NCBI GenBank assembly: GCA_951813535.1 | Contig: OX638345.1 | Location: 2,477,158 to 2,541,157 of the forward strand | DNA from: an uncultured Dehalococcoidia bacterium | GTDB taxonomy: Bacteria > Chloroflexota > Dehalococcoidia > Lucifugimonadales > UBA3495 | Direction of reading: 5' to 3' | Length of the DNA: 64,000 nucleotides | In this document: piece after piece, positions 1,001 through 22,413 of the stretch | Layout of the letters: each line of letters begins with the position of its first letter | Numbering within the stretch: the first letter of the stretch is position 1 | Notes under the pieces: model-generated | What the model saw: the letters and a program-made list of their open reading frames with translations, nothing else | The model's database searches: none | What the model was told of the DNA's origin: nothing | Made by a program: the position numbers and the translations under genes

Positions 1001-1018
1001 ATCTACGATCGCCGTATA

Positions 1019-2113: not shown

Positions 2114-2216
2114 ATGGCCGGAACCCGCCGAGTATTTACAGGCATTTGAACCTTATCGCCGAGTATGGGCCCGTAGCAGTATATGGACGGTCGGTTGGCG
2201 CAGTCAACCGCAGCGG

Positions 2217-3242
2217 TCAGTCCTTCACTCCGTACCGGCTTTCGAAATATGGAATAACGGTGTCGCCCATCTGTTCCACCACCCGCATTGCCATCCGGGC
2301 ATCCATCCCCGGGTACCAGATGCGGAACATGAAGTGATTGGCTCCCACACGGTGGTGGTGGTCTTCGATTTGTTGGATAACCTCTTCGCCGCTTCCCAGT
2401 ATGAACCGGTCGCGGGCCAATTCTTCAAACGGGATCCTGAAATCCTCATCGCCGGGCAGGGCTTTGTCCTGGCCCCAATCGGCGTAAGCCTGGTACTTGG
2501 CTTCCATGTAGGGTTGGGCGTTCCGGACCGCCTCTTCGTGGGTGGGCGCGATGTGCATCTCCTTGATTATGGGCATTTCGGGCGGCATCTCCTGTCCGCC
2601 GGCCTCCAGGCCCTCCTTGTAGATCGCTGTTTGCCTCTCCAGCGTCTCCAGGGTGGCGTGCGGGTTGACGAACCAGGGCAGGCCAAGCTCGCCGGCCCTT
2701 CGGACCACGGTGTCAAAGTTGGCGGCAACCCATATCGGCGGGTGCGGCTGTTGCACGGGTCTGATCGCGCAGGTCGCGTTGTCCAGGTTGAAGTGTTTGC
2801 CGTGGAATGTGACCTCGTCCTCGGTCCACAATCTGCGGACGAGCTCCAGGCTCTCCAGAAAACGTCCGACCCGGTGTCGGCGTTCCACGTTGAACGCCTG
2901 ATACTCAATGTCCCGGTACCCGAGACCGACGCCCAGCACGATCCGACCTTCACTGATCACATCCAGGGTTGCGACGGTTTCCGCCACGTCGGCGGGGGAA
3001 TACAGGGGCAACAGCAATATGGACAGCACCAGCTGCATGTCGCCCGAATCGGCAGCCAGCCTGGCCAACAGCGGAATGCTCTGCAGGTTCTGGTAAGGAG
3101 GCGAGAGGAAATGCTGGCCGCAGGCTATCGAACCGAACCCGGCGTCCCGGGCCAGTCGAGTCAACTCGACCGTTTCCCGGAACCTCTGCGTGGCAGAGTC
3201 TGTTGACGGGTGCTGGGGCATCGCCATAATGCCGAACTTCAT
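2217..3242 (-). CDS. LLM-class flavin/F420-dependent oxidoreductase (luciferase-like)
   Basis: 341 residues of the bacterial luciferase-like monooxygenase superfamily, a TIM-barrel enzyme using FMNH2 or F420H2. MKFGIMAMPQHPS is the first strand. The block SEGRIVLGVGLGYRD is the family signature, and IRPVQQPHPPIWVAAN follows in the second half. The start is set by GGAG seven to eight bases before the ATG at 3242; an upstream GTG at 3251 overlaps that ribosome-binding site and is less likely. Substrate cannot be read from sequence. It is one of four LLM genes in the window, and the F420 operon at 55-61 kb suggests a source of cofactor. Confidence 0.88.
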   Translation of the reverse strand: MKFGIMAMPQHPSTDSATQRFRETVELTRLARDAGFGSIACGQHFLSPPYQNLQSIPLLARLAADSGDMQLVLSILLLPLYSPADVAETVATLDVISEGRIVLGVGLGYRDIEYQAFNVERRHRVGRFLESLELVRRLWTEDEVTFHGKHFNLDNATCAIRPVQQPHPPIWVAANFDTVVRRAGELGLPWFVNPHATLETLERQTAIYKEGLEAGGQEMPPEMPIIKEMHIAPTHEEAVRNAQPYMEAKYQAYADWGQDKALPGDEDFRIPFEELARDRFILGSGEEVIQQIEDHHHRVGANHFMFRIWYPGMDARMAMRVVEQMGDTVIPYFESRYGVKD

Positions 3243-3695
3243 AGAAATCACTCCAATGGGACCTGGGTTCGTCGGTTTGATATCGCTAATAAATCCGCTA
3301 CTTGGCCAACTGTGTCCAAGCTATCACGCTTGCCTACGAGCAGCCGCAAGGTCGTACGGGCGTTCATGGGATTTCAAATTCGTGGCGCGGGAGCCTTGAG
3401 CCGACCGTCCCGCCCTGTCAGTCCGAATAGGAGAAACGGAGGGGGTATACCAACCCGGTCTGATTGGCTCGGCTGGTAAGTTGCGCTACCGCCTGCTTGC
3501 GATGCCGGGCGCGGCCGTCAGAGATTATATCTTTGGGTACAGATCACGGCAAACGGAGCGATTTACTGATGCCCCGCGTGGCGGGCAATTGTCGCCGCAC
3601 ATCTGCCAACCCGCGGCCCGGGAACCGCCGGGCGGCATGGCGTATCATGCTGGCGATTGAACATACTTGCCGCCAATAGACCCAGGAGGACCCAG
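3243..3695. other. Divergent intergenic region without a supported gene
   Basis: About 450 bases between the divergently transcribed LLM gene and the hydantoinase gene. Only short overlapping frames without codon bias are present. It must hold the promoters for both flanking genes, but I see no convincing sigma-70 hexamer pair. The strong ribosome-binding site AGGAGG at 3684-3689 belongs to the hydantoinase gene. Confidence 0.6.
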
Positions 3696-6600
3696 GTGTA
3701 CAAAATTGGGATAGACGTCGGAGGCACTTTCACCGACTTCATCGTAGCGGGCGAAACAGGACAGCCGCGTTTTTTCAAAACGCAGTCCACACCCGACGAT
3801 CCTTCGATAGGAGTCATGGTCGGATTGCAGGAAGCCGCTGCCGGGTTCGGAATGTCCCTGGAGCAATTGCTGGGCGACACTGACCTGGTCATACATGGGT
3901 CGACGGTCGCCACCAACACGCTGGTCGAACGAAAAGGGGCCCGAGTAGGGCTCGTTACCACTGACGGCTTCCGGGACCTTTTGGAAATGCGGGAGGGACT
4001 GAAGGAGGACCGGTACAACCTGCGGATGACGCCCGCGGAGCCGCTGGCGGCCCGCTATCTGCGAGTGGGTATCCCGGAACGTGTTCGGGCCAACGGTATG
4101 GTTGAACGACCCTTGGACGAAACCGCGCTGCTCGAACAACTCGACTACCTGGTCAGGGAGGGAGCCGAGACCCTGGCGGTCTGTTTCCTGTTCTCGTACC
4201 TCAACCCGACCCATGAACGACGGGTCGCGGAGCACATCCATCGCCGTTTCCCCGACCTGTACACCTCGCTCTCCTCCGAGGTGATTCCCCAGATCAAGGA
4301 GTTCGACCGCTTGAGCACCACCGTCATCAACTCGTACGTGGGTCCGGTGTTCAGCCGCTACCTCTCGCGCCTGGCGGAGCGGTTCGAAGCCTACCCTCAT
4401 CTCAAAGACGTGCTGATTATGCAATCCAACGGCGGGGTGGCAACAATCGACGACTCTCGCCGCATGGCGGTGCGGGCGATCCTTTCCGGTCCCGCTGGAG
4501 GAGTCAGCGCCGCAGCATACCTGGGACAGTTGCTGGAGGAACCGAAGGTCATCGCCTTCGATATGGGAGGCACCAGCACGGACATTTCGCTGATCGAGGA
4601 CGGGGTTCCTCACATCACCAACGAAAAGTTCGAGGCCGGGTGGAAGATTGCCGCCCCGATGATCGACATCCACACCCTGGGCGCCGGCGGCGGCAGCGTC
4701 GCCAGGGTGGATGAAGGAGGTATTCTGCACGTCGGCCCGGACAGCGCCGGGGCTGATCCCGGCCCGGCCTGCTATGGCAAGGGTGGCGTCGATCCCACCG
4801 TCACCGATGCCAGCCTGGTGCTGGGCTACCTGGACGCGGCCAATTTCCTGGGGGGACGGGCCAGTCTGGACCCGGCCGCAGCCGAGCAGACCCTGGCTGA
4901 CAGCGTGGGGGCGCCGCTTGGTCTTTCCAATGTCGAAGCGGCGTTCGGAGTGTACAAGGTCGTCTGCACCACAATCGCCGAAGGAATAAGGCTGATGTCG
5001 GTGCAGCGGGGTGTCGATCCGCGCGACTTCACCATAATGGGATTTGGAGGCGCATCGGGTCTCCATGCATCCGAGGTGGCCCGGCAGTTGCAGGTGGGCA
5101 AAGTGTACATACCCGCTTCGGCCCCCGTGCTGTCCGCCTACGGGATGCTGAACACCGACATCAAGTACGACTACTTCCGCTCCTATCCGGTCAGCCTGGA
5201 CCGGTTGGATCTGAACGAACTCCAAACCATCCTGGGCGAACTGGGAACGCAGGGGCGAGAAAAGCTTCTGGAACAGGGCGTGGCCCCTCACGCGGTGGAG
5301 ATCCAGTATTCGGCCGACATGCGATACCTGGACCAAATCTACGAAGTGACGGTGCCGCTACCCGAGCCGACCTTACCCATCACGGAATTCGTCGGTCTCC
5401 TGACCGCCAATTTCCATCAGCGGTACCAGGAGCTCTTTTCCTACAGCCAGCAGGACCAGGAGGTGCGTCTGGTTACCCTGCGCGTGACGGCCATCGGCAA
5501 GCTGCCCCGGGTAGCCCAGGTGGACCAACCGGCGGACGGCGACACGTCGGCGCCAGCCGGTTCCCGCCGCGTCTACATGGGCGAATGGCTGGACGCCCCA
5601 ACCTACGCTGCCGAACAACTGCCAGCGGGCTCCGGGATACCCGGCCCGGCGATCCTGGAATCGGAATTCACCACGATCCTGGTGTCTCCAGGCGATCGCG
5701 CCACGGTGGACGCCATGGGAGGCGTAGAGCTGAAGGTCAACCTGGAAGCCGACGGGCTCGGCGCGGACGGTGAAGCCGATCCCGGAGAGGCCGATCCCAT
5801 CACCCTGGCCGTGGTCGAACATCGCCTGGAATCCATCGCCCAGGAGATGACCGAGGCGATGCTGCGCACGGCCATGTCCCAAATCCTCAACTCCAGCCGG
5901 GATTTTTCGACTGCCATACTGGACGGTGATTGTCAGCTGGTGGCCCAGGGTGAAGGCATCCCGGTGCACATCAGCGCGCTCCCCGTGGCTGGAGCCGCCG
6001 TTCGAGACTACTTCGGAGAGGACATACACGATGGAGACCTGTTCATCCTGAATGACCCGTATTTTGGCGGCAGTCACCTGCCTGACATCACCATCATCCG
6101 GCCTGTCTTCCACGAAGGTCGTCTCCTGTTTTACGGGGTCAACCGAGCGCATCACAGCGATGTTGGCGGGGGCACTCACGGTGGCTACAACCCCGGCGCC
6201 AACGAGATTTTCCAGGAGGGCCTCCGCATACCTCCGTTGCGCCTTTATGACCGGGGAGTGCCCCGCGCCGACTTGCTCCAAATGATGTCGGCCAATGTGC
6301 GCCAATCGGAAAACTTCCTGGGCGACCTTAACGCCCAGATCGGCTCGGTGATGCTGGCTGCGCAAAGAATCGAATCGCTGCTGGCCGACTACGGCGCGGA
6401 TCGGTTGATGGCCGTCGTAGCCCAGATTCTGGCCGCCACCGAGCGGCAGGTGCGCCAGTTCATCTCCGGATGGCCCGACGGGGTGTACCACGGTGAATCG
6501 TTCGTGGACGACGACGGCTTCGACAGCAAGTTGGTGCCGATCCGCGCCAAAGTCACCATCGCCGGCGACTCGATGACCATCGACCTCAGCGAGTCCAGTC

Positions 6601-9525: not shown

Positions 9526-10491
9526 TTATTCCGGGGTGACCAGTGATTCCGCTTCCTCGCCCGAAAGTACCCGCAGGATGTTGCCATAGGCGAAATGGGC
9601 GGCTCGGAGAGCTGTTTCCTGGCTTTGACCCGCCATATGCGGGGTGATGATCACGTTGTCCAGGTCGAACAACGGGTTCTCCGCCGGCGTCGGTTCTACC
9701 TCCAGGACGTCCAATCCGGCGCCAGCGATTTGTCCGTCAGTGAGGGCGCGGTAAAGCGCCGCCTCATCCACCACCGGACCTCGACAGAGGTTGATCAGGA
9801 AGGCGGAAGTCTTCATCATGCCGAACTCGCGGTCGGACATCATGCCGCGGGTGCGTCGGGTCAGGGGTACGTGGAGGCTGACGATGTCGGAGGTCTCCAA
9901 CAGTTCATCGAACCCCACGGGCTCGGCCTTGAGCTCTCGTTGGGTTTCTTCGGGGATGTCCACCAAATCGTGGTAGATGGTCCTGGTGTCGAACCCGGTG
10001 AGCCGCTTGGCCACCTGCTTGCCGATGCGTCCGAGGCCCACGATGCCCACGGTCTTGTCGGTCACCTCTGACAGATCAGTCTGATAAAGATTGCTTCGCC
10101 ATTGGCGCTGCCTGGTGGTGCTGTCCCACTGTGCCATGAGGTTTCTGCTGATGCCGATCATGAGGGCGAGGGTCTGCTCTGAGACCGAGATGGCGTTGGC
10201 TCCCCCGTTGTTCGCCACCGGAATTCCCATTTCCAGGATCGCCTCGAGATCGAGCCGGTCGTAGCCCGCGCTGAGGGTCTGGATCAACTTGACCTTGGGA
10301 CATTCCCGCAACACGTCGACCGACAGATCGCTGGTGACGAGGGCATCGGCGTCGCGGCACAGCTCGATCTTTTCCGCATCCGAGAGCGCGGGGTCCACGA
10401 CCGTGACCTCAAGGTCGTCAGGGGCATTGTCCAGCATGATCTGGGGGCGTCCACCTACCCCGCTGAAATACGCAACTTTCCAAGTGGGCAT
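9526..10491 (-). CDS. D-2-hydroxyacid dehydrogenase (NAD-dependent)
   Basis: 321 residues of the D-isomer-specific 2-hydroxyacid dehydrogenase family, which interconverts 2-oxo and D-2-hydroxy acids. The nucleotide-binding motif GIVGLGRIGKQVAKRL is in mid-protein. The catalytic triad is recognisable as Arg in NLCRGPVVDEA, Glu in LDVLEVEPTPAEN and His in ITPHMAGQS. The start is the ATG at 10491 (MPTWKVAYFSG), preceded by AAGGAG at good spacing. It is the first gene of a likely two-gene operon with the FAH-family gene, suggesting a shared pathway for a keto or hydroxy acid. The specific substrate is unknown. Confidence 0.92.
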   Translation of the reverse strand: MPTWKVAYFSGVGGRPQIMLDNAPDDLEVTVVDPALSDAEKIELCRDADALVTSDLSVDVLRECPKVKLIQTLSAGYDRLDLEAILEMGIPVANNGGANAISVSEQTLALMIGISRNLMAQWDSTTRQRQWRSNLYQTDLSEVTDKTVGIVGLGRIGKQVAKRLTGFDTRTIYHDLVDIPEETQRELKAEPVGFDELLETSDIVSLHVPLTRRTRGMMSDREFGMMKTSAFLINLCRGPVVDEAALYRALTDGQIAGAGLDVLEVEPTPAENPLFDLDNVIITPHMAGQSQETALRAAHFAYGNILRVLSGEEAESLVTPE

Positions 10492-11093
10492 ATCGCAATC
10501 TCCTTCGCGTGTCGTCACGGACTATGAGCACTGTGGGCGCAATTATAGATGCGACGTTGGGCGTGTCAAAAATCTTGCGGTCTCAGCACATCCGGACGAT
10601 TGATCCGGCCCACCGGGCGATACCTCGTGATCCGGCAATGATCTACTGAAACACGATCAGTCTCGGGCAGTGCAGCCCTCCGCTCACACTGTCCGCAAGA
10701 ATGACCCCAAGTAGCGCCGGCTGAGGTACTTTCGCTATCGGATTCATCCGCGCGCGGTGAGCCGTCCTTCGGATATACCCCGGGCGGCGACGCGACCCGC
10801 CCCGGGGATTCGATCCGGAACCCAAGTCAGGATTCTGGGCAAGACCGGAGATGAGACATGCCGAACCGGCAGGAACGGATCCTCCTTGGTCGATAGGAGT
10901 CTCGCTGCCAGACTTTCCCCGCGCAGACGGGAGATCTAACGGCATCGCCAATCTTCAGGTCTACCCGTTCGGCAATCTCCCATACGCGAGATGCCCTTTC
11001 GACCGGCGGACCAATGACCCCACCGGATCGTCATCGAAGGCGCGGGCTGCCGTAAGTGATTGTCGCCGCGCATTAACCTGCTGGGAGCGCGAG
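10492..11093. other. About 600 bases with no supported gene
   Basis: Several frames of 60-100 codons are open here on both strands, but none has recognisable motifs, a ribosome-binding site or consistent codon bias. It follows a dehydrogenase operon and precedes an inverted-repeat element, so decayed sequence is plausible. I see nothing I can name. Confidence 0.5.
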
Positions 11094-11097
11094 TAAG

Positions 11098-11234
11098 CTC
11101 ACGCGTACCCGGTTGGCGGAACTTGAAATTGCGAGCGCAGCGCGGCAATCTCCTCGTCGGAGGCGGCGGCGCTCAATCCAGCGAGATCGCCACGTCGCTA
11201 CGATCCTCGCGATGACAAACCGGGTACGCGCGAG
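11098..11234. mobile_element. 137-bp inverted-repeat element (MITE-like)
   Basis: The left end, CTCACGCGTACCCGGTTG at 11098-11115, is matched by the inverted right end at 11217-11234 (16 of 18 positions). The interior has GC-rich blocks resembling dispersed intergenic repeats (GCGAGCGCAGCGCGGCAATC, and GATCGCCACGTCGCTACG further right) and no ORF. The terminal repeat closely matches the right terminus of the IS4-type element at 20349-20366 (17 of 18), so this could be a non-autonomous derivative moved by that transposase. No target duplication is evident. The right end abuts the 3' remnant of the subtilase pseudogene. Confidence 0.55.
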
Positions 11235-13636
11235 GGCGCCTCCGCCGTTGACGTGGACACCATAGGTCGTGTTGCCCGAAAAAACATCGTCGCGCAGCGC
11301 AACTCTTGGAGCGCCGTTGATGAGCGCGCCCGCCGCACCGTTCCCCTCGTCAGCGGCGCCGGGCCGGGTTTGGCCCGATCATGTTGCCGACGATCACCTG
11401 CTCGCCGCCGCTGCCCCGCAAGACGATCCCATTGCAGTCAAAATCATTGACGGCCAATCCGCGAATGTAGCTGCCCTTGCCAGTGAGCGTGAGGCCGTCG
11501 ACATTGGCGCCTGCGCTGCTGCCGTCCAGTTCGATCAGCACCGTACCCGCTCCGGTGCCCGGCTGGTTAAAGCCGTCAATGAAGACCGACCTGGTGATAG
11601 TGGGGAGGACCGACGCCGAGCTGGTGGTGAGAGCGCCGCTACCGGAGATGTTGTACTTGATCGGGGCGCCCCTTCCGGCGTCGGCCTGCCGGATGGCAGC
11701 GCGCAGGGAGAGGGTGCAGTTGCCGTTGCCGTCGTCGCAGAGCCCGTCTGAGGTTGAACTGTCGGCGCCGTCTCCGGTGGAGTCCTCGGTGTACGAGTTT
11801 GGGAACCCAGACACGCTGTCCAACGCGAAGTTGTCGAACTCTGAAGCGATGGATTCTATGGCGGAAAGGGCGTCCGACCGGCCGTAGCGGAACACGGCGC
11901 TGTCGCCGTCGGAATCCGGTTCGCCCAAGTCGATGGCGGTGTCCCGAAGCATTTGGGTTAGGGCGACGGCGACGGCTTTTTGCCCATCGATCGATTGGCG
12001 TCCCTCTGGGCCTCGACGACCAGGGCCGCTATGCCGGCCACGTGGGGAGCGGCTGCTGAAGTGCCGGAAAACCTTTTGGACGAACTGCCGGAGATCGGTC
12101 TGCCGAAGCCTCCGGCGCGGGCAATAAGCACTCCTTCGATCCCCCATCAAGTCGGGCTTTTTTCGGGTTTCCCGATTCGGATAGTTGATGTCCGTCCGAC
12201 CCCGACCGCTGACGGACCGCGCCTCGTCGTTGCCAGGGTCCGGGGCGCCAATGGCGCCGACGGCCAGGACTCCTGACACGGCGGGGTGGCCGAAGACGCC
12301 ACCTTCAGCCACATCGTGCGCCATGACTGCGCCATTGAAGACCAACAGATTGAGCTGCCGCGCGTGCCCCGAAAATTTGCGAATGTATACGTCCGCCGAG
12401 GAATAATCGAGGTCCTGCGGGTAAATGCTCTCGAGAGGATCGTCATCGCCGCTCTGTTTCCTGACACTGCCCTCGCAAACATCGTTCTACAGGTTGAACT
12501 TGACCGGCCTCAGGCTCGGCAGACGGACAAAAAGGACAAAGTCATTCCCGGATGAACCGAACTGGTCGTTCCACTGGAGGACGAGCGCGGTTCCGAGGCG
12601 TACCCGGAGCGCGATGTCCGTTGCGCCGGAAACATCGAAGTCGTGGTAGCCGTTGCCGTCATTCGAGGATTGGCCCGTGTAGTGTTTGACCGACCGATTC
12701 CCGGCGGCTGAGGCAAACACCACGCCGCCAGCGCAATGACACCGGCCTCATAGTAGGGCTCAACGAAGTAGGTCCAGTCGTCGACGATGATATCCGCTCC
12801 CTCGTCGTCAAAGGCCTGGTTGGCCAACCACAGTATGGATTGGGCGCATTCCAGCAACGAACCAGCGCTCGAGAAGGCGAGTTCCGCGTTGGGCGCCAAG
12901 TCATGCACAATTTCCAACAACGCGGTGCCCTCGTCGCCGGTGTGGCTTCGGTCGGGGTCAATCTCGATGCTGCTAGGGAGGTCGCCGGTTCCTCGGGCGG
13001 TTTGCCAGGAAACCACACTGTCGGAGAGGACGCCGGCCTTGGCGCCCTTGCCGCAAGTCCGCTGAAGGCCCGCACGAGGTCGGCACGATGGATGCCGTCA
13101 CGCTCGGTGGTGACCCGACCGGTATTGGGTGCGCCGCAATCCGGGGAATTGATCTCCTGCACAGCATCCAATTCCGCGATCTCGTCGAGAGCCGTGACGG
13201 GCAGCCAAGCCTGCACGATGTTCGAGTCGGAGTTGGTTATTTCGATGACCGCGCCCAGGTCCCGGATCTGCTGCAGCGTGTCGTCCCCAATGTTCTCCAG
13301 GTGGATTTATGCCTTTACGTTGCCTGACGAGTCGAACCGAACGGGGTCGTCGGTCGTTCCGGATGAACCCTTCGCGCCCTTGGCGCTCGATTCTACCTTC
13401 GCGCCTTTGGTGGTGCGTCCACCGCCGTCCTCCGAGCGGGACTCCGCACCGAAAAGAGATTGCGTATTGGTCTGGGATGCGGACGTCTGGTGCTACGGGA
13501 TGAATCCCTGCAACCAAGGGCTGATCGGAGAGTCCGGCAAGCAGGACTCTCCCGGCGGGACCTCGGCGGACACCCGCGCCGCCACGATGGGCAGGCAGGC
13601 CAACGCCACCAGCGCGATGAGTGCCTTCGCTTTCAT
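11235..13636 (-). pseudogene. Decayed secreted subtilase (S8) with CSLREA/beta-helix C-terminal region
   Basis: The ancestral gene starts at the ATG at 13636 with a signal peptide (MKAKALIALVALACLPIVAA). An in-frame TAG at 13493-13495 stops it at codon 48, and later pieces lie in all three minus frames. The order is the pro-region (IVQAWLPVTALDEIAEL), a subtilase core (DEGTALLEIVHDLAPNAEL, then FASAAGN), the catalytic-serine block FSGTSAAAPHVAGIAAL (Ser codon 12057-12059), a CSLREA-like segment (CTLSLRAAIRQADAG) and beta-helix repeats ending about 11235. At least four frameshifts and two stops make a functional product very unlikely. The intact form would be a large exported protease with a surface beta-helix. 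Confidence 0.85.
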
Positions 13637-13761
13637 GTCAGAACACGAACACAATGAATATCGCAGTAGTTGTCGCTAGCTCGTGGCAAGCAACCGTCAG
13701 CCAGGAGCGCCAAGTGACAGGTTGACAAACATAAACGATTTATCACGGAATACGCGCTTGA

Positions 13762-14380
13762 TCAGGGGCGCACAACCCGGCCCACGAAAAGGACGGCCTC
13801 CGACTCGCAGTCCCGTACCAAGAAGACGAAAGGACGGTCGATGGTGACTTCCATGGGAGTTTCGGGCTCAGCCTCGGTAACTCCCACTACCACCGCCGTG
13901 GCCGCCGGCGCCTCGGTACCCGCCTCATCCACCGAAACGAAGGTCTTGCGGGCCACGTCCGAAATCCACACGCACTCCTCGCCCTCCAGCAGGCACGACA
14001 GGCCATTCATTCCCTGGAACTCCGCCCGCGCCCCGTGGAAGGCGCTGGGCATCCCCATCTGCGCCAGGACAAGAGCAGAAGAGCTTATCGCGGGATGGAG
14101 CCAGGCTGCGGTACAGGTCGAGGACAAAGGCCGTGTTGCTTTCCACCAATAACACTGCGTCCCGGTCTCCAACCTCCGGTGACGTGTCCCGTTCCGACAA
14201 CGTCGGGGTCGGCTCCTATGGGGGCAGCGTGGGTAATGCAATTGGACTCGAGGTTGGAGCTTCCCGCGTTGACCCGCCAGAAGGCGTTGACGCTGAAGCA
14301 TCTGGTTCCGAGGTGGATTCGACCGCCGTAGGAATCGCTACGTGTCCCGGGTCCCGGGCCGTTGCGGCAACACGGGCCAT
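13762..14380 (-). pseudogene. Serpin (serine protease inhibitor) remnant with large internal deletion
   Basis: The C-terminal part in one frame has serpin hallmarks: AQMGMPSAFHGARAEFQGM, the inhibitory hinge VDEAGTEAPAATAVVVG, and the final strand FVFLVRDCESEAVLFVGR with RVVRP at the end. In another frame the serpin N-terminal helix is visible (ESNTAFVLDLYRSLA, then DKLFCS), preceded by a Pro/Ser/Thr-rich linker and an in-frame TAG. The two pieces meet near 14095. Compared with a normal 370-400 residue serpin, more than 200 residues are missing, and a frameshift separates the halves. The intact ancestor was probably a secreted or lipid-anchored inhibitor. It is adjacent to the decayed subtilase on the same strand. 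Confidence 0.8.
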
Positions 14381-14654
14381 TGGTCACCGCTATCTCACCT
14401 TCACCAAGTGTCTCGTCTCCCAGGCCTTACCGGCCGGCAACGTCCTGGAAGCTGCTGCCTGAACAACATCATCAAGGATGACGCCTATCACACCGGTTGA
14501 CGGGACGTAGACGTGGGCTGTTTGGGTTACCGGGACGAGTTAGTTATATCGATATTGCCAGGCCCGAGATACAATACCTGCCGGAGGAACGCGTCGGCAT
14601 CATCGGCGTTTACTGAGCGTGTACGCGCTCGCCGAGAGACGCATCATCCAGACT

Positions 14655-15240
14655 GCATAGGGATACGGATCAGACGCTTCCGAGGGGGACGACGGCCAGG
14701 CGGTGAGCGGCGCTGGTCAAACCGCCTGTGCCTGTGAATTCGATACGGAGCGGAACGTTGTCTTGCGGAGAGGGAGCCACCACCGGATATGCCGCATGGC
14801 CACTCGAGCCAGCGACGCGGCCTGCTGATCGCCGATGTTCAGGGTCTGCGCCTGCACCGGTTGGATCTGGAGACTGGCATCATCACCATCTTCGCCGGGA
14901 ATGATGCAATATACGGCTACTATGCCGACGGCGGACCGACGCGGCGCTCACCTGGGGAGAGCCCAAGGCGACGACTTGCATGACGACATCGTAGTAGCCG
15001 AGTCCGATGACTGCGCATTCAGACGCATGGAGACGAGTACGGCATCGTCGCCGCCATCCCCGGTGAGGGCGAAGGCGGTTACGGCGGCGACGGCCTGACA
15101 ACTGACGCCGGGTTTTTCCATCGCCGTGCCTGCGGCATAAGCTCGGAGGACGGCCTCTTTGATTGCCGACACGCGCAATCTCCGAGTCCGTCTGGCTGGC
15201 CTGTGGATGATGTCCGGCGCGGCACGAGCATCGCACGCAT
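14655..15240 (+). pseudogene. Degenerate NHL-repeat protein fragment
   Basis: Plus-strand fragments carry NHL beta-propeller repeat signatures in shifting frames. Examples are GLLIADVQGLRLHRLDLETG followed by IITIFAGND and YYADGGP, then GIVAAIPGEGEGGYGGDG, then, after a frameshift near 15160, an IADTRNLRVR-like blade. NHL proteins normally have five or six such blades; here about three are recognisable, with frameshifts and no start. I read it as a pseudogene in the same decayed pocket as the subtilase and serpin. The left boundary is approximate. Confidence 0.65.
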
Positions 15241-15272
15241 GACTACCAATATCTGGAGAGGGTTGCAATATC

Positions 15273-16337
15273 ATGACTGCACTGGAAACCGGAATCCAGT
15301 TTCACCTGCCCACTTACGCACACGTTCCGTTGCCTCACCTGGTTGAGTTGGCCACCCGGGCGGAGGCCAAAGGAGTGGGCCAACTCTGGGTGACCGATAA
15401 CTTGAGAAGCCGTCAGTCATTTGTGGCCCTGGCGGCCATGGCCTGCCGCCTCGAAATAAAGCTGGGAACCGCGGTGACCGTCCAGTATTTCCGCAACCCG
15501 GTCGACCTCGCGGATTCGATCGCCACCCTCAGCGAGTTGATGGAAGGACGGGAATTGAGCATCGGGTTGGGCAGAGGCAATCCCCAGACGCCATTGCTCA
15601 TTGGCACGCCGCGGCCGGTCAGCGTATTGCGGGAAACGGCCCAGAGCGTCCGCAGACTCCTTGCCGGAGAAGCGGTCTGCTTCGCGGACTATCCCAACCT
15701 GCTGGATTATTACCATTTCAACCCTTCTGCCGCCTTCCGGCTGAATTTTGGACCCGCGTCGCCGGTGCTACTCTATTGCGGTAGCAACGGCCCGCTGGGC
15801 ATGGCCGTTGGAGGCGAAACCATGGACGGTTTGATCTTCGGAGGCCACTATGTAGCGGCCCTGCGTACCGGCAGGGTTCCCGAGTTGCTGGACACCTTTG
15901 ACGGCGCGCTTCCTCCGGAACGCCGGGAGGGGGATGTCCCCAAGGTGGCAGAGATCAAGATTTCCGTGTCTCGAAACGCAGCGGCGGCCAGGGAGTTCGT
16001 CAAGGAGAGCGCGGGCCGCCGGGTCTTGAACATGTACCGCCAGGGTTATACACCGGAAGACATTGAGCGCCTGGGCGTGGCGCTATCCGAGGTTGAGCGG
16101 TTGCATCAGGCGGATCGGAACGGCGCAACCGAGCGCGAGTTCGACAATCTGGTTACCGACTCCATGATCGATGCCATCTTCATAGCCGGGACGCCTGAGG
16201 ACTGCCTGGAACGGATGCTGAAGGTGCGGGACACGGCACGCGAGCAGGGCTTTGGACAACTGATGTACTCCGAACTGGGTCCGGACGTGGACGAGGCGCT
16301 GGCGCTGCTGTGCGACGTGGTGATGCCAGCCCTATAA
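15273..16337 (+). CDS. LLM-class flavin/F420-dependent oxidoreductase
   Basis: 354 residues of the luciferase-like monooxygenase superfamily. Visible features are VELATRAEAKGVGQLWVTDN (strand and helix 1), LGTAVTVQYFRNPVDLADS, then MEGRELSIGLGRGNPQTP, the cofactor-phosphate-binding region, and a C-terminal IAGTPEDCLERMLKVRD helix typical of F420-dependent members. The ATG at 15273 follows a GGAGAGGG tract at slightly long spacing. Codon use looks normal and the frame is intact, in contrast to the decayed genes immediately upstream. It converges with another LLM gene on the minus strand 60 bp away, but the two are only distantly similar, so this is not a recent duplication. Confidence 0.88.
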   Translation: MTALETGIQFHLPTYAHVPLPHLVELATRAEAKGVGQLWVTDNLRSRQSFVALAAMACRLEIKLGTAVTVQYFRNPVDLADSIATLSELMEGRELSIGLGRGNPQTPLLIGTPRPVSVLRETAQSVRRLLAGEAVCFADYPNLLDYYHFNPSAAFRLNFGPASPVLLYCGSNGPLGMAVGGETMDGLIFGGHYVAALRTGRVPELLDTFDGALPPERREGDVPKVAEIKISVSRNAAAAREFVKESAGRRVLNMYRQGYTPEDIERLGVALSEVERLHQADRNGATEREFDNLVTDSMIDAIFIAGTPEDCLERMLKVRDTAREQGFGQLMYSELGPDVDEALALLCDVVMPAL

Positions 16338-16397
16338 CCGGCGTCGGCGGCTTGTTTCGGAGCAAGGCCAAGGCGAGCAATGCGCGCTGGAACCCGC

Positions 16398-17546
16398 CTA
16401 CCTGACGGCCTGCTGCTCAGGGGCCTGGGTATAGTGAGGCATCACTTCGGTCACGAACAGTTCCAACGAGCGCATAGTCTCCTCGTGGGACAGGTGGCCC
16501 CACTGGAACGCGGCTACGAAGTAGTTGGCGCCAGTCTCAACGTATTCGTCCATGTAGTTGCGAATAGAGTCCGGGGATCCGGCGACAACATTGAACCCGC
16601 CTCCTCCCGGCGCGGCATGTTCCTCAAGCCCCGCTGAGCCGGACCTTCGCGCCGCGGCGCCTTGGCTGGCCTGCGCCTCCCGGTCCGGCAGGTTCGACGG
16701 CCTGGCATTGGCGTTGCCACCGTAGAACTGGGTCAGGCCGCGCCTCTCCACTTCCAGTCGGCGCGGCGTGCCCAGGTTCCACTTGTACTGGTCCCAGGCG
16801 GGCTGGGCCATGGTTGCGGCTTCCGCGTCCGTCTCGGCCAGGAACAGGTGGTTGACCAAGCCGATCTTGGGCGTTTCACCCTGGGCGTTCAGCGCGCCCG
16901 GCCCCTGGTGCTCATCCCAGAGTTGGAAATAGCGGTCCACGTTTGACTGAAACGAGTCGAGGTTCCCCACGATGATGGAATGCATCCCGTTGACGGCTGA
17001 GGTCTCCACATTGCGCATATACCACAGGGGCGGGTAGGGGTCCTGTTTGGGGCGCAGGCGCATCGGGAGGTCGTCGAAGTTGTAGAACTCACCCCGGTAG
17101 GTCAGCGAATCGTTGCCCAGTCCCTCTTTGACCACCGCCAGCGTCTCAAGGTACCGGGCGTAGTTCGTCTCCACCTCGCCTTCCTGTCCCCAGAAGTAGG
17201 CCTCGATTACCCCGCCGCGGCCAACCCCGATGTCCATCCTCCCGCCGCTGAGGTTGTCCAGCATGCAGATTTCCTCGATCAGGCGCACCGGGTGGTGCAG
17301 CGGCAGCACGTAGACGCACGGTCCCAACCGGATAGTTCGTGTCCGCTCAGCGGCCGCGGCCAGGAACACGTTTTGAGAGGGGGCGAGACTATGGACGGCC
17401 GGCGTGTGATGCTCCGCCAGGTGATAGGAGTAAAACCCGGCGGACTCCAACCGCTCGATTTGGTCCAACCGTTCCCCGTAAATTTGGTCCAGCGGTACTC
17501 CGGGAATGGGCTCAATGTGGTCGAAAACCCCAAACTGCAATGCCAT
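16398..17546 (-). CDS. LLM-class flavin-dependent oxidoreductase
   Basis: 382 residues, luciferase-like family, closer to the alkanal monooxygenase-like branch. Motifs are SAGFYSYHLAEHHTPAV, LGPCVYVLPLHHPVRLIEE and LSGGRMDIGVGRG. The stretch around GGNANARPSNLPDRE looks like a lineage-specific loop insertion. The C-terminal AGSPDSIRNYMDEYVETGAN matches the usual family ending. The start is the ATG at 17546 (MALQFGVFDHIEPIPG). Substrate and the choice between FMN and F420 are unknown. It is downstream of, but about 215 bp from, the MFS gene and probably has its own promoter. Confidence 0.88.
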   Translation of the reverse strand: MALQFGVFDHIEPIPGVPLDQIYGERLDQIERLESAGFYSYHLAEHHTPAVHSLAPSQNVFLAAAAERTRTIRLGPCVYVLPLHHPVRLIEEICMLDNLSGGRMDIGVGRGGVIEAYFWGQEGEVETNYARYLETLAVVKEGLGNDSLTYRGEFYNFDDLPMRLRPKQDPYPPLWYMRNVETSAVNGMHSIIVGNLDSFQSNVDRYFQLWDEHQGPGALNAQGETPKIGLVNHLFLAETDAEAATMAQPAWDQYKWNLGTPRRLEVERRGLTQFYGGNANARPSNLPDREAQASQGAAARRSGSAGLEEHAAPGGGGFNVVAGSPDSIRNYMDEYVETGANYFVAAFQWGHLSHEETMRSLELFVTEVMPHYTQAPEQQAVR

Positions 17547-17763
17547 GAATAAGCTTCCTCGTGCAAATCAAACGTCTCGCGGCTCGATGGGCTCTTGATG
17601 GATGTCGAACGATCCAGCGTTGCTCGAGCCGCATTTTCAACTCTATTGTAAGCGCTTCTCTCAAGTCAAACGTGCTCGCTGCGAGCAGATATCAGAGTCC
17701 CGGAGCTAGCCGAATCCGCCGTTACGGCGGGTGGTAGCCAAGGTCAATTGCGACCGCGTCGCG

Positions 17764-18993
17764 CTATACGCGCAGGCGGCGCAACGTGGGCCGCCAGACT
17801 CCGAGCACCAACGCGACCGTCAGGTAGATGGCGGCCCCTCCCGAGAAGGCCGCCGTCCAGCTTATGTACTCCGCAACCAACGTCATCGGATATGAGCCGA
17901 TGAACATGAAACCGGCGGAAATGTACCAGACGCTCATCACTCTGCCCTGAAACTCCGCCGGGACGGAGAGTTGCAGCACGGTCGTCCCCATTGGCACGAT
18001 GCTGCCCATTCCGACCAGGAACAGTATCGCCCAGGAAACCCAGAACCAGTGTGACCAGCCCAGGCAGAAAAGGGAGATGCCGAAAAGGAACATGCAGGCC
18101 AGCAGCAGCCAGTTCTTGCGGGATGAGTTGCCCAGCGACGCCATGATGATCGTGCCGGACAGGGACCCAATGCCCGCGCCGGTGATCAGCAACCCGGCAC
18201 CGCCGGCGCCGGTGTCGAGCACCAGTTTGGCGAAGGCGGGCAGCAACTGGGCGTAGGGCATCGCGAAGAAGCCGAAGGCGAACCCAATGCCGATCACGGT
18301 GAAAGTGATTGGGTTAGACCAGCAGTACCGCAGCCCGCCCCACAGCTCGGACAGGATGGACGAGCGTTGTTCCCGGGTCGGTACTGGCACCCGCCGCACC
18401 ATGAGCAGCGTTACCGTGCCAACGCCAAAACAGCCGGCGGCCAGGTATAGCGAAGGGGTAATTCCTGCCAGTTCAATGACGCCCCCGGCCAGGGCCGGAC
18501 CCAGGATTCGTCCGGAGTTCATAACTGCCGAGTTCAGGACGACGGCGTTCATCAGGTCGTCGCGGTCCACCAGGTCGCGGACTATGGCCAGCCGGGCCGG
18601 GGTATTGATGGCCTGGAGGGTGCCCAGGACGAACGACGCTGCGTAGATTTGCCAGAGGGCAATCAGCCCGGCGGTCTCCAGCGCGGCGATACCCAACACC
18701 AGCACGGCTACCAGCGCCTGGGTCAGCATCAGCAGTCCACGCCGGTCGAAGCGGTCGGCGAAGGTGCCTCCGAACAGCACGAACCCCAGGGTGGGCACCC
18801 CGTACAGGAAGATCATGAAACCCATGCGGGAGGCAGAGCCGGTCAGTTCCAGGACCATCCAACCCAGGATGAGGAACTGCATTCCCCTGGCCAATGCCTG
18901 GGCGTTGGCGCCGAGCCAGAACCAGCGGTAGTCGCGGTGCCGCAGCGCTCGGAAAGTCTGGAGCCTGCGGCCGACGGCCAGAATCTGGGCCAA
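17764..18993 (-). CDS. MFS transporter (EntS/MFS_3-like exporter)
   Basis: 409 residues with about twelve hydrophobic segments, the size and pattern of a major facilitator. FRALRHRDYRWFWLGAN is the typical N-terminus of the MFS_3 (enterobactin-exporter-like) branch, and GGTFADRFDRRGLLMLTQ is the conserved loop 2-3 motif (G-x-x-x-D-R-x-x-R-R). The likely start is TTG at 18993, preceded by GGTGG at five bases. Such proteins export small molecules by proton antiport; no neighbouring biosynthetic genes indicate the cargo. It is a single-gene unit. Confidence 0.88.
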   Translation of the reverse strand: MAQILAVGRRLQTFRALRHRDYRWFWLGANAQALARGMQFLILGWMVLELTGSASRMGFMIFLYGVPTLGFVLFGGTFADRFDRRGLLMLTQALVAVLVLGIAALETAGLIALWQIYAASFVLGTLQAINTPARLAIVRDLVDRDDLMNAVVLNSAVMNSGRILGPALAGGVIELAGITPSLYLAAGCFGVGTVTLLMVRRVPVPTREQRSSILSELWGGLRYCWSNPITFTVIGIGFAFGFFAMPYAQLLPAFAKLVLDTGAGGAGLLITGAGIGSLSGTIIMASLGNSSRKNWLLLACMFLFGISLFCLGWSHWFWVSWAILFLVGMGSIVPMGTTVLQLSVPAEFQGRVMSVWYISAGFMFIGSYPMTLVAEYISWTAAFSGGAAIYLTVALVLGVWRPTLRRLRV

Positions 18994-19144
18994 CTATTCC
19001 ACCAAGTTTTGCCGTTTCAGGTGCTCGTCGGCGTGTTTTTCAGCGTAAATGAGACGGCGGTTGCCATAAACAACTTACCACTGTGGGTGTTTCGCGATAT
19101 GACACCTATCAGGTTGACGCCCGCCCGTCAATCGCATACTCGCG

Positions 19145-20366
19145 CTCACGCCTACCCACTTTGAGTTGACGGGTTGAAGAAAGCCGGTCTCTCCGGGTAA
19201 GGAACGGGTTAGCTGCCACATTCCTGCCTGGGGAGGCCGACCATGTCATGGTATCGTCGTATCGCCACCTTTCTGAACTATTCTCTGCCGCAGGTGCGGA
19301 CGACCCGCCAAACCAATCTGGCCCTGCTCACGATGGCTATTCTGGAGCGTCGCGCCCTGGCCATATCGGTGTTGGTGCGGGCCTGGCGGGTTGAACTGCC
19401 CTATTCTCACCACCGGCGGAAGAAACGGCTCTTTCGCTTTCTGTCCAACACCGGCTTTGACACCGTGGCGGTGCAGACGGCGCTGCTAGCTCTCATCTGC
19501 CAGGCGGCCAAGTTGCGAGGGCTGACCCCGATCATGATCGACTGGTCTGATCTGGGACAGGGGCGCAACGGACTGTTCGCAGCGGTCTGTTTTCGAGGTC
19601 GGGGGCTGCCCCTGCTCAGCTGGGGTGTCCACGCCGGAAGAGTTGGACCCGTCCCAGAACCGGGTGGAGGAGTTCTTCATCGGTAGGCCGTTGCGCCACC
19701 TGCCCACCAACATCCGGTCCTTGCTGTTGGCCGACCGTCGGTTTGGCCGGGCCAGCCTGATCCGTTTGGTGCAGCAGATGCCCAACCACACCGGCTACCC
19801 CGTGGACTACGTGATCCGCCTCAGGGGCGATGTGGTGTTCCAGAGCGCCGATTATCGTTCCTCTGGATATCGTAGTCGATTGCGGGACTATTCCCTGCCC
19901 AAAGACCGGATCCTGTTCTGGCCTCGGACCCTCTACCGATCCGATGGAGCGGCGGTCATCAATCTGGCGCTCTATTGGCTTCGAGGTCATCGAGAGCCCT
20001 GGTATCTGGCCACGTCGTTGACCAACCCTCACCAGGCGGTGCGGATGTATCGGAAATGGACGCAGCCGGAGCAGTACTTCAAGAGCCTGCCTCGTGCTAC
20101 GACACGGGGATGGCAAGCAACGCTTCGGGTTGAACCGGAGCACGGTAACCACCACCGACCGGCTGCAACGGTTGCTGGTCGGGCCGCTGCTGACCTGCTG
20201 CCTGTAGATCATGATGGGCATGCGGGCATCGCAACTTTCCGGCGGCAGGTCTGCTCCCGTGGGAAGCTGGGCATCCTGCATCTGGGCTATGAATACTACC
20301 TTGCCACACCCGACCCGCCCGACCACCTCTTCGCCATCCACCAAAATCAAACCGGGTACGCGTGAG
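19145..20366. mobile_element. Degenerate IS4-family-type insertion sequence
   Basis: About 1.22 kb bounded by imperfect 18-bp inverted repeats: CTCACGCCTACCCACTTT at 19145-19162, and the complement of CTCACGCGTACCCGGTTT at 20349-20366 (15 of 18 match). It encloses a frameshifted DDE transposase gene, and the right repeat overlaps the last transposase codons. No clear target duplication is visible. The right end is fused directly to a cadherin-repeat coding remnant, whose upstream portion is not found on the left side. The right repeat also matches the ends of the small element at 11098-11234. Confidence 0.6.
19243..20365 (+). pseudogene. IS4-family DDE transposase, frameshifted
   Basis: The 5' piece (19243 to about 19640) includes the first catalytic block MIDWSDLGQGRNG. 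The continuation is in the next frame from 19625, with the second Asp in LLLADRRFGRASLIRL and the C-terminal Y-x2-K/W-x-x-P-E-Q block (MYRKWTQPEQYF) that carries the catalytic Glu. A second set of shifts near 20090-20230 scrambles the region reading TDRLQRLLVG; the ending LGILHLGYEYYLATP returns in frame. With at least two frameshifts, the product is unlikely to be active unless supplied in trans. Confidence 0.82.
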
Positions 20367-21643
20367 AGCCATTTCGCCATTGACGATTGGGGCCTATTCG
20401 TCTTCCGGGCGGACCGTCCTCCGGATTTCGACGCGCCCGGGGAAGCGACCGGGGACAACGTCTACAGCGTGACCATCCAGACCCGGCACCCCGAGACGAA
20501 CACCGGCAGCTTGGCGGTGACGGTGCTGGTCAACGAGGTGAACGAGGGGCCGGTGATCACCCGCCAGGGCGGCCTTTCCGGCATTCCTCCGGGCAGCGTA
20601 CCGGAGAACCACCCCGCAACCGAGGCGCTGGCCACCCACACCGCCTCCGACCCGGAGAACCCCGCAGCCGGCATCTACCGGTGGAGCGCGACCGTCCGCG
20701 ACGGCGGCGACTTCGTGATCAACGCCCTCGGCTAACTGCGGTTCCGGAACGCGCCGGGCTACGAGCGGCCGGCCGACACCGGTCGGGACAAGGTCTACGA
20801 GGTGACCGTGCGGGCCCACGACGGCCGGGTGTACGGGACGGTAGATGCGCCGCTGCTGGTCACCGTGACGGAGGTGAACGAGGCGTCGGTGATCACCACC
20901 ACCAGCCGCACCGAGTTCACCATCAGGGAGAACTCGACATCGACTGTCTACACCAACCGGGCCACGTACCAGGACCAAAACGACGTGATCCGGTGGTCGG
21001 TTGAGGAGACGGACGGTGGCGACTTCGTCATCGACCGCTACAGCGGTGTCCTGAGTTTCCGGAACACGCCGGACTACGGCCGTCCCGCCGACTCCGACCT
21101 GAACAACGTCTACGAACTCACGGTGCGGGCCACGACAGCCGGGCCTACGGTTGCCTGAACGTGGTCGTCACTGTCACCAAGGTCAACGAGGGCGCGCCGA
21201 TGGTCACCGGACGGACCACCCACAGCGTGCGGGAAAACACCCCCTCCACGATCTACACCTACTGGGCCACCGACCCGGATTTGGGCGACGCCATCGCGTG
21301 GTCGACGGGCGGGGACGATGGGGGAGACTTTGTCATCACCAGGGACAGCAGCGGTCGGGGCCTGCTGGCCTTCGCCATCCCGCCGGACTTTGAGAACCCG
21401 GCGGATAGCGATCAGGACGACGTCTACGAGCTGGAGGTGGTGGCCACCGACCGGGCGGACCTCTGAGGAACGCTGTCAGTAACCGTGACCGTCACCGCGC
21501 GGAACGAGTGGCCGGCGGATGCGGAGCGCGACAACGTGTACGAGGTAACAGTCGAAGCCAGCGACGAGACCGGCAACACGGTCCGCCTGGAGGTCACGGT
21601 CGTGAACCTGCCGGACCGAGACAGCCTCGACCAACGAGACTAG
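20367..21643 (+). pseudogene. Cadherin-type tandem-repeat adhesin, 5'-truncated and broken
   Basis: Contains three to four repeats of about 105 residues with cadherin-like blocks: DFDAPGEATGDNVYSVTIQ, TVTEVNEASVITTTSRTEF, DLNNVYELTVRA and DQDDVYELEVVATDRADL. Each repeat ends in a VNE-type linker. The frame is interrupted by TAA at 20733-20735, a frameshift near 21140 and TGA at 21464-21466, and the last repeat is shortened. There is no start or signal sequence because the 5' side ends at the IS terminus (20366). The intact protein would be a large secreted, calcium-binding adhesion protein. Confidence 0.82.
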
Positions 21644-22309
21644 ACCCGAGCGCATTCGGCGGCCGCAACATTTGGCTCGACGATGACTCGATATCCAGTT
21701 CGCAGCCCCAGTGGTACAAACTTCGCACATCCTCGATTGGCGGAATGGTGACGAAGTAGATCCCGGCTCATGCGTCGCCGTCATCGCACGCTAAATTCCA
21801 CCGTGGAATTGGCCGGGTGGGCACGCGGTGCTGAGATATTCAAGGGCGGCAATCGACGTAAGAACCAAAACTCGAAAATCCCTACTCAAAGCGGGGATAA
21901 CACCCAAACGCCATTGTGGGATTCCCTAACTTGCCCTTATTTTCCCGTAACGTAGCAAATTCTCTCTGATCTCAGCACGAGGCGACCCAATCATTGTTCT
22001 TCGACGAATCGCAAGTTCCCACTTGCTGTCCTTCGAAAAGTGGTAGCCGAGGCGCGAAGATGCAACGTCTTAAAACAGGGACTGAGGACGCTACACGCGC
22101 CATCGAGCGTGATCCCCGTCACCCGATGAGTTGCGCGCACCGCCCCGTAGCCTTCACCCAACTTCCCACGCCGGATCGTGGGCAAAAAAGCGGCCAGCCT
22201 GCGCGGAGGTGCCCGCGTCCCGGGCACACCATTACATTGACCGACTGAACAGGTGCCGAGACTCGATCCAAGAGTGGGACACAAAGTGGGAAACGCAAAC
22301 CCGACGCGC
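21644..22309. other. Non-coding spacer between adhesin remnant and tRNA-Arg
   Basis: About 670 bases with no frame that shows family motifs or codon bias. It contains one of two 24-bp direct repeats (21875-21898), whose partner lies just beyond the tRNA. A plus-strand frame at 22131-22379 reads through the tRNA complement and is an artefact. Confidence 0.55.
21875..21898. repeat. 24-bp direct repeat, distal copy
   Basis: Matches 22310-22333 at 23 of 24 positions (shared core ATCCCTACTCAAAGC). It lies 435 bp away in the same orientation. The partner sits four bases from the tRNA-Arg 3' end, which is where integrating elements often leave att duplications, but no integrase gene lies between the copies. 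Confidence 0.6.
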
Positions 22310-22333
22310 AAAATCCCTACTCAAAGCAGGGAT
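22310..22333 (-). terminator. Terminator-like hairpin and proximal repeat after tRNA-Arg
   Basis: On the minus strand, ATCCCT and AGGGAT pair around a nine-base loop, followed by TTT, immediately after the CCA end of tRNA-Arg. It is a short, modest intrinsic terminator. The same 24 bases are the proximal copy of the direct repeat whose other copy is at 21875-21898. Confidence 0.55.
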
Positions 22334-22337
22334 GCAA

Positions 22338-22413
22338 TGGCGTCCCAGGCAGGATTCGAACCCGCGGCCAGCTGCTTAGAAGGCAGCCGCTCTATCCACT
22401 GAGCTACTGGGAC
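22338..22413 (-). tRNA. tRNA-Arg (anticodon TCT)
   Basis: 76 nt including an encoded CCA (22338-22340 on the complement). The acceptor stem GTCCCAG pairs with CTGGGAC and the discriminator is G. The D arm is GCTC..GAGC. The anticodon loop CTTCTAA gives anticodon TCT, reading AGA. The T arm is GCGGG-TTCGAAT-CCTGC. All stems pair. It marks the right border of the decayed accessory pocket. Confidence 0.97.

Follow-up and report, generated by a model that had tools for sequence, protein, structure and literature searches.

Remains of a serpin gene and a giant subtilase gene, probably split by an inversion between related mobile elements, in a Dehalococcoidia genome

The DNA analysed here is a 64-kb stretch (the window) of a genome that forms a 4.38-Mb single contig. 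It carries the decayed remains of a serpin gene and of a giant subtilase/beta-helix gene side by side on the minus strand, a decayed cadherin-repeat region about 9 kb away on the plus strand, and two mobile elements of one family, one at the end of each of the two giant-like remnants. We compared these remains with relatives, in particular with SAR202 cluster bacterium bin22 (contig MPMM01000002.1; Chloroflexota, Dehalococcoidia), which belongs to the same family as the window genome and to another genus. A metagenome study on Aplysina aerophoba, a sponge, lists bin22 under the SAR202 clade (PMC5649159). Genome labels are G000 for the window's own genome, G062 for bin22 and G057 for a genome of the same order, and 13 congeners were included in the comparison.

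The 5' part of the giant subtilase pseudogene, comprising the propeptide, the S8 catalytic region and the start of a beta-helix, lies at 11235..13645 on the minus strand and ends at a miniature inverted-repeat transposable element (MITE). A frameshift-aware alignment matches window 13645..11232 (minus strand) to residues 7-829 of a 5495-aa homologue in bin22; it has 457 identities among 794 aligned residues and is interrupted by three in-frame stops and five frameshifts. The original prediction, which had described a multi-frameshifted subtilase/beta-helix gene at this place, was thus correct on this point. Two separate protein searches with the remnant also returned the bin22 giant as the best match (E=3.0e-62 and 1.2e-28). 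The profile PF00082 reached 27.1 bits on the part of the window that holds the catalytic Ser, above its curated cut-off of 21.8, and 58.5 bits on the intact bin22 homologue.

The adjoining serpin pseudogene consists of two pieces on the same strand. The C-terminal third, including the reactive-centre loop (13765..14067, minus strand), matches positions 279-370 of PF00079 (E=1.6e-23, 84 bits, cut-off 27) and is closest to the bin22 serpin (63%), followed by G166 (53%). A second piece, which spans the N-terminal linker and the first helix and has one in-frame stop, was found by tblastn at 14072..14338 (minus strand; 34% to the bin22 serpin over 105 columns, E=6e-11), and no signal peptide was found at this N-terminal piece (14338..14072). 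Between the two pieces, residues 202-454 of the bin22 serpin (253 residues) are absent and the reading frame also changes, so the predicted internal deletion of more than 200 residues is real; as the window holds no complete PF00079 domain, we treat the gene as a serpin pseudogene. In inhibitory serpins, the hinge consensus consists of small residues following GTE. Both proteins show this pattern, with GTEAAAATA in bin22 and GTEAPAATA in the window remnant. Elsewhere, the window genome retains another intact serpin (489-aa frame). A further serpin of this genome is split over two frames (G000:C1:1069339-1070474, L115), and a serpin of congener G005 (G005:C251, L116) contains several in-frame stops; serpins seem to decay repeatedly in the window's genus.

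One-contig assemblies can contain indel errors, and the window is read from an assembly. An intact gene cluster disfigured by sequencing or assembly errors is nevertheless a highly improbable account of these lesions. The 253 residues missing from the serpin, the 92 and 56 residues missing from an NHL-repeat gene described below, a 137-bp element and a 1.2-kb insertion sequence (IS) are not read errors; 42% of the aligned residues differ from the homologue, and the neighbouring genes align over their full length as single matches.

In bin22, the same two genes are intact. Its serpin domain (332524-333648) lies directly upstream of the subtilase open frame (315987-332471) on the same strand, with about 65 bp from the serpin stop to the first ATG of the 5495-aa frame. 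The serpin frame is 555 aa long, matches positions 2-368 of PF00079 with 363.9 bits, and carries the motif LWVGC, which by rule we take to be a lipobox, making the protein presumably a lipoprotein. The 5495-aa frame contains an S8 domain, weak CSLREA and beta-helix matches, and then long cadherin arrays. Judging from these domains, the intact module would be a protease-like protein, secreted or on the cell surface, with an adhesive stalk of cadherin repeats and a lipoprotein serpin of its own to guard it. Because the two genes adjoin in intact form in bin22, the protease and the serpin of the window very probably once formed a pair.

The beta-helix/catalytic piece of the subtilase remnant was matched in 4 of 99 genomes, the window's own included (G000, G062, G057 and, in its later part, G072 at E=3e-16), and in none of the 13 congeners. 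The N-terminal subtilase piece was matched in six of the 99, including one weak congener match in G007 (E=6.7e-4). We discarded the latter, which aligns to query residues 105-185, the wrong-frame part after a frameshift; no credible match to the bin22-type subtilase is therefore left among the 13 congeners. A scan of named genomes with the bin22 subtilase, in a collection that may omit the window's own genome, recovered bin22 itself only (1 of 30 pattern-matched stretches). Serpins were found in 13 of 197 genomes by profile and in 54 of 395 by protein search, the own genome being included in both counts. No subtilase was detected near any of the 14 other serpin loci fetched (stretches of 7.6-19.9 kb, some limited by contig ends), in a search that recovered all four known subtilase genes used as a control. 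Within this sample, bin22 is the only genome with an intact serpin-subtilase pair, and in the window the pair is dead.

The catalytic domain itself departs from the S8 pattern. An Asp-His-Ser triad is not present in bin22 and G057: both carry Glu (DEGTA) in the His column and, at the Asp column, a Ser with the Asp right behind it, so that the Asp is shifted by one, and both retain the catalytic Ser (GTSAAAP) and the oxyanion Asn. The window remnant shows the same DEGTA and GTSAAAP, with the Glu site at 12930-12932 (minus strand). The Glu-for-His type is thus common to the remnant, bin22 (L046:1488-17972) and G057 (L047:2325-7997), and the His is retained in two other subtilases of the window genome. 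In our view, this Glu recalls that of sedolisins. By its sequence, the bin22-type catalytic domain is an S8-fold relative and not a proven canonical S8 protease; given the Glu in the His column and the shifted Asp, its protease activity and its trapping by a serpin are at most putative. The window genome has another subtilase in one 772-aa frame. Besides, a 1017-aa frame of this genome (L059:1092-4142) holds both a subtilase and a phage integrase domain. Compared by eye with the 772-aa paralogue, its subtilase end enters a different frame, and the whole looks like a frameshifted subtilase reading into a neighbouring integrase and not like a true fusion.

Reading of all frames revealed, at 20367..21643 on the plus strand, a decayed cadherin-repeat region with a giant-like C-terminus, which is likely the 3' part of the giant gene. 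It aligns to the bin22 giant with 54% identity over 266 columns (E=2.9e-90), matches PF00028 at E=2.4e-6 with 28.3 bits, slightly below the cut-off of 28.8, and contains in-frame stops and one frame change. Across the 64 kb, the bin22 giant finds matches at 11232-13345 and 20298-21631 only (E<=1e-4, low-complexity filter on).

Both remnants end at a mobile element. The subtilase homology stops at 11232, and at this end lies the MITE (family A; 11098..11234, unstranded), a 137-bp element with the terminal inverted repeats CTCACGCGTACCC and GGGTACGCGCGAG, which we delimited by its own-genome copies and inverted repeat. The cadherin homology begins at about 20367-20391, directly after an IS4-family IS of 1222 bp (19145..20366, plus strand), likewise delimited by own-genome copies. 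This IS carries the terminal repeats of the MITE, 18 bp long and common to both elements, and its transposase is spread over two frames (19213-19683 and 19538-20362). Within the 64 kb, the terminal repeat occurs in four copies only (at most four mismatches), two per element.

The window IS is a broken copy, and its own frames gave no transposase match in Pfam. Its family assignment comes from other copies in the genome: three full-length ones (85% identity) have the same ends and one 384-aa transposase frame each, and all three are flanked by target duplications of 9-10 bp. One of these intact copies (L119) matches the NCBIfam IS4-family model NF033591 with 157.2 bits (cut-off 152). For the MITE, at least 26 further full or partial matches were counted in the own genome, with 40 of 129 candidates scored, and 14 copies including that of the window were aligned. 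We fetched 13 of the 26 further matches and dropped two, in each of which one of the repeats was unrecognised; target duplications of 8-10 bp were found at 4 of the 11 copies tested. Being 137 bp long, without a transposase, and having terminal repeats and duplication length in common with the IS, the element qualifies as a MITE, and the simplest account of it is a shortened derivative of the IS. As DNA it folds better than its shuffled versions (z -2.65). Family A was also matched in many of the congeners searched, and its core is presumably similar to a palindromic motif that many bacterial genomes contain. Altogether, the pair behaves like known IS4-family elements and their derived MITEs in its transposase model (in the intact copy), common terminal repeats and 8-10 bp duplications, and unlike a typical IS4-family element, the window copy is degraded and has no flanking duplication of its own.

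The flanks of the two elements suggest a link between the two remnants. Neither the window MITE nor the window IS has a duplication of its own, since their left and right flanks agree at 5 of 10 and 3 of 10 positions, respectively. The 10-bp left flank of the MITE, CGCGAGTAAG (11088..11097), is a candidate copy of a target-site duplication; compared with the corresponding flank of the IS, CATACTCGCG (19135..19144), in reverse complement, it agrees at 9 of 10 positions. Random pairs reach nine or more at about 1e-4, and among 480 cross-element pairs from 16 elements this was the best match, the next reaching 8/10. An inversion of about 9 kb between the elements would make one left flank the reverse complement of the other, as was seen, and the match also has the duplication length of the family, 9-10 bp for the IS and 8-10 bp for the MITE. 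If the inversion is undone, the serpin, the subtilase half, the IS and the cadherin half come to lie on one strand, which is the order in bin22.

We therefore read the region as the wreck of a serpin plus giant subtilase/beta-helix/cadherin module in which one gene was split by an inversion, and put the probability of this reading at roughly 60%. In such a course of events, the starting point would have been a serpin gene followed by a giant gene, as is still intact in bin22. The giant gene would have been hit by the IS4-family element and would have lost adjacent material, corresponding to bin22 residues of about 830-3880. An inversion of about 9 kb would have followed, by recombination or transposition between this IS and a MITE, also of its family, that stood next to a transporter gene. 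It would have placed the serpin and the protease half on the minus strand, 9 kb from the cadherin half on the plus strand, after which both halves would have decayed. Inversions between inverted IS copies of one family that break genes are a standard part of bacterial genome evolution. The window resembles such cases in having related elements at both breakpoints and an exchange of flanks, and differs from them in that a MITE is one of the two elements involved, the broken gene is an unusual giant and a neighbouring deletion has to be assumed.

The transporter gene in question is an intact gene of the major facilitator superfamily (MFS) type at 17764..18993 (minus strand). Upstream of its counterpart in congener G012 there are two sequences that resemble the terminal repeat (15/18 and 14/18; L050:11152-11331, 180 bp end to end), and the first of them starts 12 bp after a conserved GTCAAT, exactly the position of the left end of the window IS. 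This coincidence of position suggests that the MITE may once have been located beside the MFS gene. At the same place, G001 shows at most a vague trace of a repeat and none is visible in G009. When the flank that the MITE would have had before the rearrangement (10519-11097) was sought beside the MFS gene in relatives, nothing beyond the upstream region of the dehydrogenase gene was found.

Several observations weigh against a single split gene. At the junctions, the second pair of flanks (MITE right versus IS right) agrees at only 2 of 10 positions, which is explained only by the assumed deletion. A deletion beside the IS is compatible with the mismatch, which in itself does not argue for one; the same deletion would explain the absence of about 3000 residues of the middle of the bin22 protein. 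The ten bases at the G012 element, compared by eye, likewise agree with window 19135-19144 at 2 of 10 positions, and the G012 element may be a separate insertion. Moreover, junctions and lesions are read from assembled sequence. On the side of the serpin, the lead of bin22 over G166 at the C-terminal piece is small (106 versus 102 bits), and a 45-residue N-terminal piece even fits G166 (59%, 42 bits) better than bin22 (40%, 31 bits), so that the identity of the serpin rests on its C-terminus and on its position beside the subtilase. A serpin alone is also nothing special, given its presence in 54 of 395 genomes, and it was the neighbours at the 14 other serpin loci that we examined. Finally, the 1891-aa subtilase homologue of G057 is shorter than that of bin22 and gave no cadherin match.

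The cadherin piece lends itself to a different account, namely that two unrelated giants died: the subtilase with its serpin, and a kexin-type subtilase-cadherin giant as in G002 and G013 of which 20367-21643 would be the 3' end, both truncated by the same element family, with no gene split. Over 129 residues, identity of the piece reaches 75% with both G002:C31 and G013:C109, 71% with G013:C47 and 51-57% with bin22. Its bits, summed over three segments (collinear ones for G002 and for the first two bin22 segments), were 506 for G013:C109, 489 for G013:C47, about 477 for G002:C31 and about 406 for bin22. We used summed bits and collinearity here and dropped whole-gene orthology of the piece, as the repeats are too alike among the giants. 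Since C47 and C31 carry a different protease head, the piece may derive from another giant; the head of C47 is a canonical-looking subtilase with a P-domain, that of C31 is 66% identical to it, and kexin-type heads occur in 3 of the 13 congeners (G002, G012 and G013). On the other hand, the best match in summed bits, C109, is collinear with the bin22 tail over 2407 columns (64.6%), which softens this objection. The head of C109 lies outside the assembled sequence, and upstream of its tail none of the IS, MITE and giant sequences tried gave a match. In addition, no kexin-type head was matched elsewhere in the window or in the own genome, the 9/10 match of the inverted flanks would need another explanation, and so would the collinearity with bin22 that appears once the inversion is undone. 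The G012 flank mismatch and the serpin comparisons count against the split gene and slightly in favour of two giants, a reading that we still consider unlikely.

Similar giants were seen in other genomes. Five loci (L139, L140, L141, L142 and L046) contain frames of 2418-5495 aa whose cadherin tails can be aligned and in all five cases end in NLTD; their heads differ: S8 plus beta-helix in L046, S8 plus fn3 and P-domain in L139 (L140 being similar), and fn3 with no Pfam peptidase match in L142, whereas the head of L141 is unassembled. Cadherin tails that align over thousands of residues beneath different heads suggest, at the level of sequence, that heads may have been exchanged on a common cadherin stalk.

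The serpin-subtilase pair is comparable in layout to known protease-inhibitor pairs. Compared by sequence with solved structures, the bin22 catalytic domain comes closest to mirolase (8ehe, E=1.7e-11), which we take to be a KLIKK protease. In the KLIKK protease-potempin operons of Tannerella forsythia, as outlined in the source text, a lipoprotein inhibitor gene directly precedes the gene of a secreted protease (PMC7296668), and in bin22 a predicted lipoprotein inhibitor gene similarly lies just ahead of a secreted protease-like gene. The differences are that potempins are described there as small lipoproteins (PMC7296668) and the bin22 inhibitor is a serpin, that the bin22 protease-like protein has a beta-helix and thousands of residues of cadherin stalk, and that the pairing in bin22 is read from adjacency. 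T. forsythia also has a serpin, miropin, described as an inhibitor of host proteases (PMC7296668). As with miropin, the serpin here is bacterial and comes from a species that secretes proteases as well. For miropin those descriptions give no pairing with an adjacent subtilase, whereas the present serpin adjoins a subtilase, with both genes intact in bin22 and both reduced to pseudogenes in the window. With respect to sponge-associated bacteria, cadherin transcripts have been described in deep-sea sponge microbiomes (PMC10837836) and eukaryote-like repeat proteins in sponge Chloroflexi (PMC6306507), in texts whose main parts do not use the word "serpin". Within the full-text literature searches made here, no paper on serpins in sponge-symbiont Chloroflexi was found. 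The intact pair in a sponge-derived SAR202 genome may be of use to specialists.

A broader picture, which we put forward as doubtful, is that bin22-type SAR202 would possess giants with a common cadherin stalk and exchangeable heads, the Glu-for-His subtilase head being checked by a dedicated lipoprotein serpin, and that the window would be a natural knockout in which this module was lost as a unit. The gene loss itself is genuine, fairly legible and of a known, ordinary kind brought about by insertion sequences, and the rearrangement can still be partly read from the target-site flanks. The suggestion that protease and serpin decayed together through loss of an extracellular function is a fair one in light of the bin22 pair. 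It had, however, overlooked the IS/MITE rearrangement, with the IS at 19145-20366, the cadherin region at 20367-21643 and the remnants at 11098-11234 and 14372-14510 all unnoticed, and an intact serpin and a subtilase in one frame persist elsewhere in the genome.

The right border of the whole region is a tRNA-Arg (tct) gene (22338..22413, minus strand), identified as a border by comparison with relatives. The left neighbour is an intact D-2-hydroxyacid dehydrogenase-like gene (9526..10518, minus strand), and like those of the other intact neighbours its name comes from sequence reading; it aligns as one match, over 321-329 residues, at 8 of the 12 loci compared in relatives. Between these two genes lie 11.8 kb (10519-22337), including a block of an NHL-repeat pseudogene, two luciferase-like genes (LLM1 and LLM2) and the MFS gene. 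In G004 and G013, the dehydrogenase gene, the tRNA-Arg and the gene at window 22448 adjoin (L052, L056), which implies that the 11.8 kb are extra or have moved in the window genome and might be taken for a tRNA-Arg-associated genomic island imported with already decayed genes. Such an import appears improbable to us, because the NHL-LLM1-LLM2-MFS block is conserved elsewhere in G001, G009 and G012, so that a good part of the 11.8 kb is native to the genus, and because no tRNA appears in the fetched sequence at six of the eight relative loci that have the dehydrogenase gene, G004 and G013 being the two where it adjoins. The other three genes of the block are intact: LLM1 (15273..16337, plus strand) aligns over 354 of 354 residues at 86-88% and LLM2 (16398..17546, minus strand) over 373-380 of 382 residues in G001, G004, G009 and G012, and the MFS protein over 409 of 409 residues in G001, G009 and G012. 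The statement that all housekeeping neighbours are intact thus holds for the four nearest genes, the dehydrogenase gene and these three, whereas the degraded IS and cadherin region lie just beyond them.

The NHL-repeat pseudogene (14552..15205, plus strand) is indeed broken: in a frameshift-aware alignment to a 344-aa NHL protein, 14631-15203 is interrupted by one stop and five frameshifts and lacks stretches of 92, 56 and 2 residues. It does not belong to the joint graveyard in which it had been placed. An intact 344-aa NHL gene occupies the same position just upstream of LLM1 in G001, G004, G009 and G012, and the window genome has its own intact copy at 65.6-66.7 kb, which is 86-89% identical to the NHL proteins of these four congeners and identical to the window pseudogene at 108 of 187 aligned residues. 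The window NHL gene is a dying second copy at the congeners' address, unrelated to the protease-inhibitor module. What looked like a cluster of unrelated dead genes resolves, on the split-gene reading, into one broken module and one unrelated dead copy.

Two minor features complete the description. Rfam matches within the 64 kb were four tRNAs only. Between the serpin and the NHL pseudogene lies the 3' end of an IS256-family element (14372..14510, plus strand), a remnant recognised by alignment with nine further matches in the own genome; unlike the MITE, it does not fold better than shuffles (z 0.07), and a copy of its family (L028) carries Transposase_mut (PF00872, E=1.9e-54).

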